Positions 8,109-14,239 of a stretch of DNA of 64,000 bases are shown here, piece after piece. Source of the stretch: Victivallales bacterium (GTDB lineage Bacteria > Verrucomicrobiota > Lentisphaeria > Victivallales > UBA1829); assembly GCA_016285345.1 (NCBI GenBank), contig JAEEQN010000007.1, positions 1 through 64,000 on the forward strand, written 5' to 3'. Position numbers and translations under genes: made by a program. Position 1 is the first letter of the stretch. Each line of letters opens with the position of its first letter. The notes under the pieces were generated by a model. It did no database searches. It was given only the letters and a program-made list of their open reading frames with translations, and had not been told where the DNA came from.

Positions 8109-9020
8109 TCAGAGGCCGAAAGGCTTGAGCTGTTCGGCGAGGGTGTCGTCGTCCTTGGACGCCTCGACCTGTTCGATCTGCCAGGTCTCGATGTGTTCGG
8201 AAAAGTCACCGGGTTCGACCGGAGCCTCGGGGCCGATGGACTCGACCTCAAGCATGCCGGGCTCGGTGTAGAATTCGGCGTTGCAGCCGTAATCGGTGTA
8301 CGGCGCGCCGTCGATGAACGGGAAGTGCTTGATGAAGAGTTCGGAGCCGAACGCGTAGGCCGCCCAGCCGGGTTTGACGAGGGCGCCGAATTTCTGCTTG
8401 GTCGGGTACGCGTCGTCCTGGCTCATGCGGATGAAGCGCTTACCCCAGACGAACCGCGGATCGGCCATGTTCGTGAACTGCCACAGCACGATCGGACGGC
8501 CCGCGGCGAACGACTGGCCCGCGCCCGGTCCGTGCGGCACGAAGGGTTCCTGCGGGACGATGACCGTGCCGCCGGGAGCCATGACGGAAAGCGCCCACGT
8601 GGCGAATTTGGCCGCCCAGGGGCCGCGGTTCCAGATACGGTGCGTGACTTTGACGAGGCTGCCGGAAGCCGGGAAGTTGATCACGATCTCCTTCTGGAGG
8701 CGGGAGACAGTTTCGGTTTCGCAGGTCAGCGTGAGGCGGGCGCCGTCCCACTCGTATTTGACCGGCTGGACGTCCGGGTAATAGGTACGCGTCCAGACTT
8801 CCGGTGCGTGCCACAGGCGGTGTCCGCCGTAACTCTGCCAGGTGTCCTGCGAGATGTTCGCCATCTGGTCGTCGAAGTTCTTGAAGAAGTTCGCGCCGCC
8901 CTTGCGCTTGAAGGACAGGACGCGCGGGCCGAGGCCGACGGAAACGACAAGTTCGATTTCGCCGTTGTCGAGGAGAAGGCAGTCTTTCCAGCCTTTGTAT
9001 TCGATGGTTTGGAGACTCAT
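8109..9020 (-). CDS. Galactose-mutarotase-like protein (DUF4380-type)
   Basis: A 303-residue soluble protein with the look of the galactose mutarotase/aldose-epimerase beta-sandwich superfamily. It opens with an N-terminal strand LLDNGEIELVVSVGLGPRVL, carries GGHRLWHAPE (about 66-75) where such folds keep a catalytic or substrate-binding His, and has many aromatic turns typical of sugar binding. No signal peptide is present. It resembles proteins annotated as DUF4380; the substrate is unknown. It follows purD by 45 bp and ends in a strong terminator, so the two are probably cotranscribed, although no purine role is evident. Confidence 0.7.
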   Translation of the reverse strand: MSLQTIEYKGWKDCLLLDNGEIELVVSVGLGPRVLSFKRKGGANFFKNFDDQMANISQDTWQSYGGHRLWHAPEVWTRTYYPDVQPVKYEWDGARLTLTCETETVSRLQKEIVINFPASGSLVKVTHRIWNRGPWAAKFATWALSVMAPGGTVIVPQEPFVPHGPGAGQSFAAGRPIVLWQFTNMADPRFVWGKRFIRMSQDDAYPTKQKFGALVKPGWAAYAFGSELFIKHFPFIDGAPYTDYGCNAEFYTEPGMLEVESIGPEAPVEPGDFSEHIETWQIEQVEASKDDDTLAEQLKPFGL

Positions 9021-10507: not shown

Positions 10508-12445
10508 CTACACTTTTGTTGACTGTTCCTGAAGAGGGAGGAAGAGCGAGAAGGCCGCGCCGCTTGATTCAGGATCGGCGGGGTCGAGCTGGAGCCAGCC
10601 TTTGTGCGAGATGAGGATACCGTACGCCATGGAGAGCCCCATGCCGGTGCCCTGCCCGACCGGCTTCGTGGTAAAGAACGGCTCGAAAATGCGCGCGCGG
10701 AGGTCGTCCGGCACGCCGGGGCCGGAATCCTTGATGCGGATCACGCAGTAACGGGCGTCCGGGGAGACGTCGGCGTCCGGCGGGGGGAGCGGGTCGACGC
10801 CGAGCGCGGCGGGCGTGCCGAGGGAAATGGTGATGCGGCGGTCGTGTTCCGGTATCTTCCGCACGGCGTCGCGCGCGTTCATGAGCAGATTCAGGATGAC
10901 CTGCTGGAGCTGGACGGAGTCGCCGCGGACGATCAGCGGCGCATTATCCGCGTGTTTGTTCGGAAGGTCGAGCTTGAAGTCGATGCCCGCGGCGGACGGC
11001 AGGAACATGGCGGCCGAGGTGTTCAGGAAGGCGGCAAGGTCGATCTCCGAGGCGGTGAAGTTGCCGCGCCGGGCAAATCCGAGCAGGTCGCGCGTGAGCG
11101 TGGCGGCGCGCTCGGTGATGGTGTCGATGACCTCGATGTGACGGCGGGCATTCTCCTCGCGGACGGGGTACATGTACTTGATGAGATCGAGGTGCCCCTG
11201 GATCGCCTGAAGGAAGTTGTTGAAGTCGTGCGCGATGCCGCCCGCCAGCTCGCCGATGGATGCGAGACGCTGCCGATGGAACGTCTGCTCGCGCCACACT
11301 TCGCGTTCGCGTTCGAGCCGCGTCCGTTCGGTCACGTCGCGCCCGTGGACCAGCACCATCGGCGTCTCGTCGATCACGACGCGGTTGATGGCGAGTTCCA
11401 GGATGCGGTCCGTGCCGGGCGGCGTGGCGGTGTAGCGCGCCTCGGGTTCCGCGAGAAGCGCATCCCACTTCTCCCGTTCGATCCCGGCAAGCTCGGGAAA
11501 CGATTTATCCTTGAGCTCGTCGGCGGTGGTGCGGAACATCGTCGCGGCTGAATCGTTGACCTCGGAAATGATGCCGTTCTGGTCGGTCAGGAAGATGCAT
11601 GCGACGGCGTTGCGGAACAACACACGGTAGCGTTCCTCCGTGTCGCGCAGCGTCTTTTCCAGCTCGACGCGCTTGCCGTAGTTGCCGAAGAACGCGATCA
11701 CGATGTCGAGCGCGCCGCGTCCCTCGCCGGGCAGTTCGTAGCGGATGCGCGAGATGTAGAACGTGATGATGACGCTGAGCCACAGTACCATGAGCGTCTT
11801 GAAGAGATAGGACGCCTCCAGGTCGAGCCACCAGTCCGGGCGGCCCCAGCGGTACACGGCGGAAAACACCATGGCGTCGCTCAGCTGGACGGCAATGAGC
11901 GAGGCGGCCACGCAGAGGAAGAGGTTGATGCGGCGGTTGCGGAGCCCCTGATAGAAGATCGGGATCAGGAAGATGTCGACCGTGAAGGACAGCACATTCG
12001 CGGCCATCACGCGCAGGCTGCTTCGCATCATTGAGGCGAATGTCACGGGGAGCTGGTCGGACGCGGTGTCCTGCGGCGGGATCATCTCGGCCTGCGTCAC
12101 GGTAAGGTGCGCCAGGTAGAGATACAGCGCCAGCGAGATCATGAGCCCGATGATCACGCGCTGGGCCGAAAGCGTGCCGTCGGCGATGTAGATGACCGCG
12201 AGGATCCCAAGAAACGGCAACATGAGCACGCCGGACGAGAGCGGAATGTCGAACCCGGAATACCCTGTGACGATCGTGATGCCGCCCGCGCCCGCGAACT
12301 GCGTGAATCCGAAGAGCAGCCCCATCGCGACGTAGGAAGCCGGCGCGCCGAGCTGTTTTTTCAGCCCGTGAAGCAGCAGGAGCGTCACGAAAAGAAAGGT
12401 CATTTCGAGAACGGCCAGTGCGATGCTGAAAAACGTGGTGTCCAT
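10508..12445 (-). CDS. Membrane PAS sensor histidine kinase
   Basis: A 645-residue hybrid of a multi-spanning membrane sensor and a cytoplasmic kinase. Residues 1 to about 240 hold six to seven hydrophobic helices; the arrangement and motifs such as TVDIFLIPIFYQGLRNRR faintly recall the VUT/YhhQ vitamin-uptake fold, a weak resemblance. A PAS domain follows (about 265-385), then HisKA with the phosphoacceptor H406 in GGIAHDFNN, and the HATPase_c boxes N (NARDA), G1 (DSGPGVP), F (FFTTKP) and G2 (GTGMGLS). It is related to NtrB-like kinases. No response regulator is encoded nearby. It lies 55 bp behind mcsB and may share its transcript. Confidence 0.88.
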   Translation of the reverse strand: MDTTFFSIALAVLEMTFLFVTLLLLHGLKKQLGAPASYVAMGLLFGFTQFAGAGGITIVTGYSGFDIPLSSGVLMLPFLGILAVIYIADGTLSAQRVIIGLMISLALYLYLAHLTVTQAEMIPPQDTASDQLPVTFASMMRSSLRVMAANVLSFTVDIFLIPIFYQGLRNRRINLFLCVAASLIAVQLSDAMVFSAVYRWGRPDWWLDLEASYLFKTLMVLWLSVIITFYISRIRYELPGEGRGALDIVIAFFGNYGKRVELEKTLRDTEERYRVLFRNAVACIFLTDQNGIISEVNDSAATMFRTTADELKDKSFPELAGIEREKWDALLAEPEARYTATPPGTDRILELAINRVVIDETPMVLVHGRDVTERTRLEREREVWREQTFHRQRLASIGELAGGIAHDFNNFLQAIQGHLDLIKYMYPVREENARRHIEVIDTITERAATLTRDLLGFARRGNFTASEIDLAAFLNTSAAMFLPSAAGIDFKLDLPNKHADNAPLIVRGDSVQLQQVILNLLMNARDAVRKIPEHDRRITISLGTPAALGVDPLPPPDADVSPDARYCVIRIKDSGPGVPDDLRARIFEPFFTTKPVGQGTGMGLSMAYGILISHKGWLQLDPADPESSGAAFSLFLPLQEQSTKV

Positions 12446-12500: not shown

Positions 12501-13589
12501 TCAGCTCTCCGGTCCGGTCTCTTCGGCGGCCTCCGGTCCATGGAGGCGTTCGCGGAAACGTTCGGCCCGGTACTTGCCGCGTTCCATGGGCGACAGCGCC
12601 ATGTTCATGCGGCAGCAGAGGTGCGCGGGCTGGCATTCGAGGAGGAGTTCCGCCCAGTCCTGCCGCGTGAAATCCCGGAAGACGCCGGAATCCGCGCCGA
12701 GCTTCATGATGGAGAGTGCGTCGAGCGCTTCCGAGGTCGGGATGAGGTAGTTGTTGCGGAGCAACCCGTAGGCGCGGCCGCAGGCGTTCAGGAACAGCAG
12801 TTTCTGACGGCTGATGAGCTCAGCGCGGGTGCGTTCTTCCTCGCGTGAGATGGCCGTGACGACCTCCGTCATGCGGAGTCCCAAGTCCTCCTCGCGTTCG
12901 CCGAGCGTGGTCCGGTTGGAGATGAGGAAGAGGTTTCCGGCGGGCTTCCCGTCGACCGGGAAATACGGCGCGGCGGTAAGTCCGGCGTCCTCCAGACGTT
13001 CGAGGATGCGTTTGCGTCGGCCGGAGAGCCCGAGCGCAGGCAAGTGGATCAGGAACGTGATCCTGAGGCCGGTCCCGACCAGCGCGGGCGCGCCGGTCAG
13101 GTAGCCGTAACGCGGATGGAACGCGAACCGGAGGTGGCGCGCGAGCGCGGATTCCAGCTCGGACATGCGGTCCCAGGTCTCGCGGAACGCCGAACCCGGC
13201 GCGGTCATGTGAAGCCAGATGTGGTCGTCGCCGTTCAGGAGGACCGAGGTGGACCCGTCCTCGGCGCAGACAAAGACGCGGCAGGCGGCGATGTCCGTAT
13301 GCGAACGGTCCATCAGCTCGCGTTCCACGAGCAGGTCGCGGTCGGATGTGGTCAGGAGTTCGTGCTTGATCTGGAACATGCTCGGGAGCAGGCTGTGGAC
13401 GTCCTCGTGGTGCATGGCGGCAAGCGTGAGCTCGGCGACCGATTCCAGGATGTTCGCGGAGGCCGTCGCGGGGAACTGGAATCCCTCGATGTTGCGCGAG
13501 AGGGAAAGGAATGTGGAAAGGATGGGCCCCTGCCCGATGAAGACAGGTCCTTTGCTTGCGAGATGGCGGATGCGCGGATGGAAGATCAT
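12501..13589 (-). CDS. mcsB: McsB-like protein, probably a catalytically dead arginine kinase
   Basis: A 362-residue member of the phosphagen-kinase family aligned with McsB over its whole length; conserved stretches include GYLTGAPALVGTGLR (162-176), LPALGL and GNLFLISNRTTLG. Canonical McsB phosphorylates arginines to mark proteins for ClpCP. Here key residues differ from the Bacillus McsB I recall: the nucleotide-binding SSRIRLARN motif reads STFLSLSRN (25-33), NEEDHIR reads NGDDHIW (119-125), the reactive cysteine of TSCPTNVGTG is A167, and the R-G-x-Y-G-E segment is A-A-P-Y-F-P (206-211). Only R176 is plainly kept. It overlaps mcsA by ATGA, so the pair remains coupled. A structural adaptor role is more likely than kinase activity. 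Confidence 0.85.
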   Translation of the reverse strand: MIFHPRIRHLASKGPVFIGQGPILSTFLSLSRNIEGFQFPATASANILESVAELTLAAMHHEDVHSLLPSMFQIKHELLTTSDRDLLVERELMDRSHTDIAACRVFVCAEDGSTSVLLNGDDHIWLHMTAPGSAFRETWDRMSELESALARHLRFAFHPRYGYLTGAPALVGTGLRITFLIHLPALGLSGRRKRILERLEDAGLTAAPYFPVDGKPAGNLFLISNRTTLGEREEDLGLRMTEVVTAISREEERTRAELISRQKLLFLNACGRAYGLLRNNYLIPTSEALDALSIMKLGADSGVFRDFTRQDWAELLLECQPAHLCCRMNMALSPMERGKYRAERFRERLHGPEAAEETGPES

Positions 13590-14239
13590 GAGCTCTTCCT
13601 CCTTCCGCGGGCACGCGTTTTTTTCGGGGGCGTTTCAGGCGCGGATTCGTCCGGGATAAGCTCGGCGGACTTAAGTTCGGTCTCGATCCCGGCGATCTTG
13701 TCGCGGATCTCGGCGGCCAGCTCGAATTCCTCGCGCCGGACGGATTCGTCGAGGCTCTTGCGGAGGCGTTCGAGCTCGCGCCGAAGGCCGATGCGTTCGG
13801 AAACAGCCGGATCGTGCCACTGTTCGACCGTTTCCGGCGGCGTCTTGCCGCAATGCACGCTGCCGTGCTGGTTCAGCTCGATGTCCTCCAGAAGGACCTG
13901 GCTGAACTGCTCGTAGCAGGCGGCGCACCCGACTTTGCCGTTTTTCTTGTATGCGTGCCAGCTCGCGCCGCAGACATCGCACTGGAGATCCTGCGCTTCC
14001 TCTTCCTGCGGCTTCTTCTGGTCGAACAGCTCGGCAAGTTTCAGGTCGGCGCTGTTCGCGATCGCCTGCGTAAGACGTTCGAGCATCTCGTGAAAATGCG
14101 AATTGACGGCGTTTCCCTCGGCCAGGTTGCGCTTCTTCGCGCATTCGGCGCAGATGTGTAGGGTATTGGTCTCGCCGTTGACGATTTCCTGTATGTGAAT
14201 GGTAGCCGGATTGGCCTTGCAGATCTGACATAACATCAT
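13586..14239 (-). CDS. mcsA: McsA, zinc-finger activator of McsB
   Basis: A 217-residue McsA/YacH-type protein. Four C-x2-C pairs form two zinc sites: CQIC and CAEC near the N-terminus, CDVC and CAAC around 95-125. The central segment SVHCGKTPP is typical, and a C-terminal UVR-like motif (REEFELAAEIRDKI, about 170-190) is followed by a basic tail. In Firmicutes McsA activates McsB and partners the ClpC protease. The ATG at 14239 is chosen because GGAG lies six bases upstream. The stop overlaps the mcsB start by four bases. Zinc ligands look intact, unlike the partner kinase. Confidence 0.92.
   Translation of the reverse strand: MMLCQICKANPATIHIQEIVNGETNTLHICAECAKKRNLAEGNAVNSHFHEMLERLTQAIANSADLKLAELFDQKKPQEEEAQDLQCDVCGASWHAYKKNGKVGCAACYEQFSQVLLEDIELNQHGSVHCGKTPPETVEQWHDPAVSERIGLRRELERLRKSLDESVRREEFELAAEIRDKIAGIETELKSAELIPDESAPETPPKKTRARGRRKSS

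Follow-up and report, generated by a model that had tools for sequence, protein, structure and literature searches.

Does the McsB encoded at this locus, which appears to lack the active site of a protein arginine kinase, persist as a pseudokinase together with its partner McsA, and if so, what might such a protein do? The locus lies in a rumen Lentisphaeria bacterium, within a 64,000-nucleotide stretch of DNA that was analysed as a whole (hereafter, the window), and consists of adjoining mcsA and mcsB genes, both on the minus strand and overlapping by 4 nt. The first gene of the pair, mcsA (13586..14239, minus strand, 217 aa), was recognised by its UVR motif, the McsA equivalog profile and a match to PDB entry 8wtb_B. 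The second, mcsB (12501..13589, minus strand, 362 aa), encodes a degenerate arginine kinase, or pseudokinase, with the loss of activity inferred from sequence. McsB residues 22–350 align to the Geobacillus/Bacillus McsB structures (6fh1, E 2e-44; 8wtb, 6e-40; 6tv6, 6e-40), PF00217 (the phosphagen-kinase domain) matches at 122.5 bits against a cut-off of 22.4, and both this domain and the McsB C-terminal domain are present by homology. The curated McsB equivalog cut-offs were all missed by a wide margin (215 bits versus 385 for the best model, and 188 bits versus 500 for the Bacillus model). Structure prediction of the window McsB, with ten relatives, was poor (mean pLDDT of 51.5) and adds little; McsB ranked top in Foldseek with a TM of only about 0.25, and this result is therefore not counted as evidence of fold. 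Below, g1 denotes the genus of the window, g2–g10 the other genera of its family, f a family and G a genome; all genomes compared are assemblies, many of them MAGs.

In alignments with the solved McsBs and with 58 Lentisphaeria and other relatives, the catalytic columns of the window McsB are substituted without any shift. The initial annotation had claimed that the SRIR, NEEDHIR, cysteine and RGxYGE elements were all replaced, and this claim held. SSRIRLAR has become STFLSLSR, INEEDHIRIQ has become LNGDDHIWLH, TSCPTN has become TGAPAL and RGTYGE has become APYFPV. In the alignment, the former SRIR nucleotide-binding motif is now TFLS (McsB residues 26–29; 13503..13514), the former NEEDHIR motif is NGDDHIW (residues 119–125; 13215..13235), the position of the reactive Cys167 is occupied by Ala (13089..13091), the former RGxYGE lid is APYFPV (residues 207–212; 12954..12971) and the pArg-receptor pair R337/D338, a site named in PMC8370763, is R/G (12576..12581), all on the minus strand. 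The D-H of NEEDH and the last R of SRIRLAR are retained, as are the GTGLR loop and the GYLT core of the McsA-contact loop region, FHPRYGYLT (residues 157–165; 13095..13121, minus strand), the position of which was inferred from the S. aureus complex (PMC12467219). Loss of arginine-kinase catalysis by the window McsB is thus well supported by its sequence and by comparison; it is inferred, without biochemistry. It is very unlikely that the protein still works as an arginine kinase through an atypical active site. In favour of this possibility, Asp121 could partly stand in for Glu, and Arg176 and Asp122-His123 remain. Against it, the reactive Cys and the lid are lost, both NEEDH glutamates are changed and, of the five arginines that bind phosphate in arginine kinases (positions assigned from knowledge of the family), four are gone.

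The initial annotation had also described the zinc ligands of McsA as intact, and this held as well: all eight zinc cysteines are present in four CxxC pairs (C4/C7, C30/C33, C87/C90 and C105/C108). As read from the translation and the CxxC count, Cys4, Cys7, Cys30 and Cys33 make up an intact N-terminal zinc finger (14141..14230, minus strand), and Cys87, Cys90, Cys105 and Cys108 an intact second finger (13916..13981, minus strand); the finger of S. aureus McsA that touches McsB has cysteines with the identical numbers 87, 90, 105 and 108 (PMC12467219). The UVR motif (13679..13780, minus strand) matches PF02151 with 30.9 bits versus a cut-off of 21.5, and the protein aligns to B. subtilis McsA (8wtb_B, E 6e-25), while scoring 123.9 bits on the McsA equivalog profile, under its cut-off of 210. 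The association of the two proteins extends well beyond the window. McsA-like sequence was found at 127 of 129 mcsB loci, and most of those with a degenerate McsB have all four CxxC pairs; in family f14, McsA was not found in the fetched mcsB flank. Within the McsA-contact loop of degenerate McsBs, G162 is kept in 99% and L164 in 92%. Further, in four f10 genomes (G404, G323, G401 and G409) the McsA and McsB matches share one open frame of 566–589 aa (L223, L227, L234 and L242, respectively), apparently a gene fusion of McsA with a degenerate McsB; three f11 frames match both proteins more weakly, and fusion is possible there too.

A scan of the family gave a single PF00217 match in each of 33 of the 36 genomes, and the scores are bimodal: 118–124 bits in g1, 120 in G008 (g6) and 88 in G001 (g2), versus 171–235 in the rest. 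The catalytic motifs are absent from G008, G001 and all 11 g1 copies found (one each in 11 of 13 g1 genomes), including that of G020, whose identity with the window protein is only 41%. Three g7 genomes represent an intermediate state, with Cys167, the lid Glu and the arginine of GTGLR all gone, the McsBs of G037 and G058 are partly changed at the active site, and G095, from another family, has lost most catalytic sites on its own. Most of the family and the order retain an intact McsB active site, and the losses are thus not common to all Lentisphaerota. No genome searched has more than one PF00217 match; in the assembly of the window (83% complete), no second PF00217 protein was found. When the catalytic columns are left out of the tree, g1 forms one clade (support 98) that is joined to g6 and g2 (91), the latter two being long branches of unsure placement.

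The g1 copies are under purifying selection. Among ten close g1 members, dN/dS of mcsB ranges from 0.034 to 0.167 (45 pairs, median 0.107), the value for mcsA being higher (0.143), and because pairwise dN/dS is about 0.1, the degenerate mcsB is not decaying in g1. Moreover, the 12 catalytic columns are retained in g1 at only 6%, versus 71% for 49 other columns matched for conservation among intact McsBs (permutation p 1e-4). A pseudogene en route to loss is contradicted for g1 by dN/dS, and this explanation is very unlikely. The long branches of the g2 and g6 copies, the short g2 open frame and a stop in 1 of 60 copies across the phylum speak for it; the g1 dN/dS, the absence of stops and a linkage that is intact across species speak against it. 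The criterion for a pseudokinase, namely catalytic residues gone in all orthologues of the clade and a protein held by selection, is met, the inactivity itself being inferred. Overall, the earlier proposal of a pseudokinase that keeps the fold and its coupling to McsA is supported by the alignment, conservation in g1, purifying selection and single copy number.

Two other open frames of the window may be recorded here. A histidine kinase gene (10508-12445, minus strand), with VUPS sensor, PAS, HisKA and HATPase domains, follows 55 bases after mcsB, and a 303-aa open frame (8109-9020, minus strand) has no Pfam match at E 0.001. The idea that the histidine kinase partners only the inactive McsB was rejected because genera with an intact McsB also have a homologue close to mcsB; such a homologue is found near mcsB in most members of the order that were checked, whether their McsB is intact or degenerate.

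On a phylum-wide scale, McsB was detected in 365 of 388 genomes scanned (that of the window included), one in each, many of them low-scoring. Reading a further 60 low-scoring McsBs revealed a degenerate active site; degeneration is total in the majority and partial in others, such as G204, G310 and G269. In 59 of the 60 there is no stop inside the match, and the open frames span about 300–670 aa; the sole broken-looking copy, L237 (G195), carries an in-frame TAG. With lineages weighted equally, the 12 catalytic columns are kept at 18%, versus 53% for equally conserved phosphotransferase columns and 55% for whole-protein comparison columns (permutation p 1.5e-4 and 5e-5, respectively). This contrast is partly biased because the low-scoring set was selected by score over the same domain; the g1 contrast is independent of that selection. 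Several families contain both intact and degenerate members, and therefore several independent losses are likely.

At lid column 208, most copies in 5 of the 15 degenerate lineages have Pro in place of Gly208, frequently with aromatic residues next to it downstream, and convergence is a possible reading. The same observation bears on an alternative in which McsB has become a new enzyme or a sensor of small molecules, its old active site having been reshaped for binding or catalysis of a new kind. In support of this alternative, besides the recurrent Pro, close g1 members show almost no variation in the lid PYFPVDGK and the former NEEDH segment, with low dN/dS. However, the new sequence is missing from G020 (a deep g1 member) and from g2 and g6. 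The lid alignment is also uncertain, and correction for about 30 columns leaves only a weak Gly208 signal (p about 0.02). We consider remodelling unlikely.

The distribution of the phosphoarginine eraser was compared with that of the degenerate kinase. In low-molecular-weight (LMW) phosphatases, Thr at the fifth position of the P-loop steers the enzyme towards phosphoarginine and Ile towards phosphotyrosine (PMC8001253). The LMW phosphatase loci of g1, g6 and g7 have CHGNICRS only, whereas the Thr form is present in g3, g5, g8, g9 and g10 and, by DNA pattern, in G004 (g4), the other g4 loci having Ile; G001 (g2) yielded no LMW phosphatase. The failure to find a Thr-type phosphatase in the g1 genomes is a further point against an atypical kinase. 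Across the phylum, a YwlE-type Thr P-loop was found in 3 of 70 genomes with a degenerate McsB versus 155 of the 295 remaining genomes with McsB (p 1.5e-15). The search used a DNA pattern for C[T/S]GNTCR, which misses variants, and the counts were tallied by hand. The 3 of 70 leaves out three g1 matches (G027, G030 and G028), with which the count becomes 6 of 70 (p 1.3e-12). As phosphatases, the g1 pattern matches were rejected: those in G023, G027 and G030 lie in unrelated short frames and not in LMW phosphatases, and the fourth, in G028, was set aside unread, its 20-base string being identical to that of G027. Within genus g78, the Thr-type pattern occurs in 0 of 11 degenerate versus 11 of 12 intact members (p 1e-5). 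In f25 genomes, McsB is intact and the pattern almost always absent; these may possibly have another eraser, or none. Because intact lineages can also lack the pattern, we state the association one way only, from a degenerate McsB to the absence of a Thr-type eraser. The test ignores shared ancestry and is uncorrected for phylogeny.

What, then, might a McsA–McsB pair without catalysis act on? In Firmicutes, McsA/McsB binds the ClpC N-terminal domain, and the pArg pockets of this domain also stabilise the ClpC resting state (PMC12583610). A ClpC N-terminal domain was matched in nearly all genomes with a degenerate McsB (strongly diverged in f29), and clpC lies just downstream of the degenerate mcsB in several other lineages; in the assembly of the window it is present on a different contig from mcsAB. 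Loss of the pArg pocket along with the kinase was ruled out: most degenerate genomes still have E32 and E106, the exceptions being g6, with E32R, and two f39 genomes. Because the pockets also hold the ClpC resting state, their retention does not require phosphoarginine, and this role could possibly explain why E32 and E106 remain. In G020 (L049; g1, 94% complete), mcsAB is kept and ClpC was not found, even with a same-genus query, only ClpB being detected; ClpC was likewise not found in G031, which has only ClpB and where an assembly gap is possible.

These observations frame the chief rival, which is possible: that the dead McsB has McsA as its only partner, holding or stabilising it as a zinc or redox sensor, or acts on a transcription factor, in either case without ClpC. 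This rival is favoured by G020, which keeps mcsAB without a detectable clpC, by an McsA linkage that is more constant than the clpC linkage, and by B. subtilis McsB, which acts on DNA-bound CtsR independently of its kinase activity (PMC5506225). Against it, clpC is directly downstream of the degenerate mcsB in other lineages, and CtsR was detected in only 1 of 36 family genomes, and weakly. On the same grounds, CtsR was ruled out as a general remaining client.

With moderate confidence, we favour a McsB that is a pseudokinase held in the McsA complex and is probably a phosphorylation-free adaptor or regulator of ClpC, the ClpC role and the binding being inferred. In this reading, McsB has lost its active site yet retains the overall architecture of McsBs and remains tied to McsA; the McsA–McsB complex would act on the ClpC N-terminal domain as a scaffold or adaptor that needs no phosphorylation, and the zinc fingers of McsA may provide a redox switch. 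It rests on the motif losses, conservation in g1, purifying selection, single copy number, recurrence, absence of the Thr-type eraser and McsA linkage or fusion. The suggestion in the initial annotation that the protein is kept as an adaptor or regulator is thus plausible but not shown. The main objection is that in B. subtilis McsB reportedly cannot act as an adaptor without its kinase activity (PMC5506225), which makes a simple carry-over of the Bacillus role doubtful. Further points against this reading are G020, without a detected ClpC, the separation of clpC from mcsAB in the assembly of the window, and the one-way, phylogenetically uncorrected nature of the eraser association. A bolder reading, which we can neither prefer nor dismiss, is that in many separate lineages of the phylum a phosphoarginine tag system has been converted to a phosphorylation-free one, the catalysis of the writer and the Thr-type eraser having gone and McsA–McsB staying as a direct ClpC adaptor or regulator.

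Compared with known McsBs (PDB 6FH1, 6TV6, 8WTB and 8GQD), the window protein is alike in full-length homology, its mcsA neighbour, the core of the McsA-contact loop and one copy per genome, but differs in lacking SRIR, NEEDH, Cys167, RGxYGE and Asp338, with no Thr-type phosphatase found. Similarly, its McsA resembles the known activator in having two zinc fingers, eight cysteines and a UVR motif, although that activator is known for positioning the cysteine of McsB (PMC12467219), a task left without a target in this pair. Bacterial Ser/Thr pseudokinases (PMC12599244; Pkn5 in PMC5177608) are likewise kinase homologues without catalytic residues, but the window McsB is a guanidino (phosphagen) kinase of a different fold. 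We found no report of a McsB pseudokinase in the open-access literature searched, which does not exclude that one exists.

McsB marks proteins for degradation, and a phosphorylation-independent role is hard to separate in Bacillus; lineages that keep McsA–McsB without catalysis are natural separation-of-function mutants. Because genus g78 contains both intact and degenerate versions, a comparison of close relatives is feasible. The annotation "protein arginine kinase" will often be wrong in these bacteria, in which phosphoarginine signalling has likely been lost repeatedly. The results suggest, by inference, that an enzyme for degradation tagging may have been turned repeatedly into a non-enzymatic partner protein.
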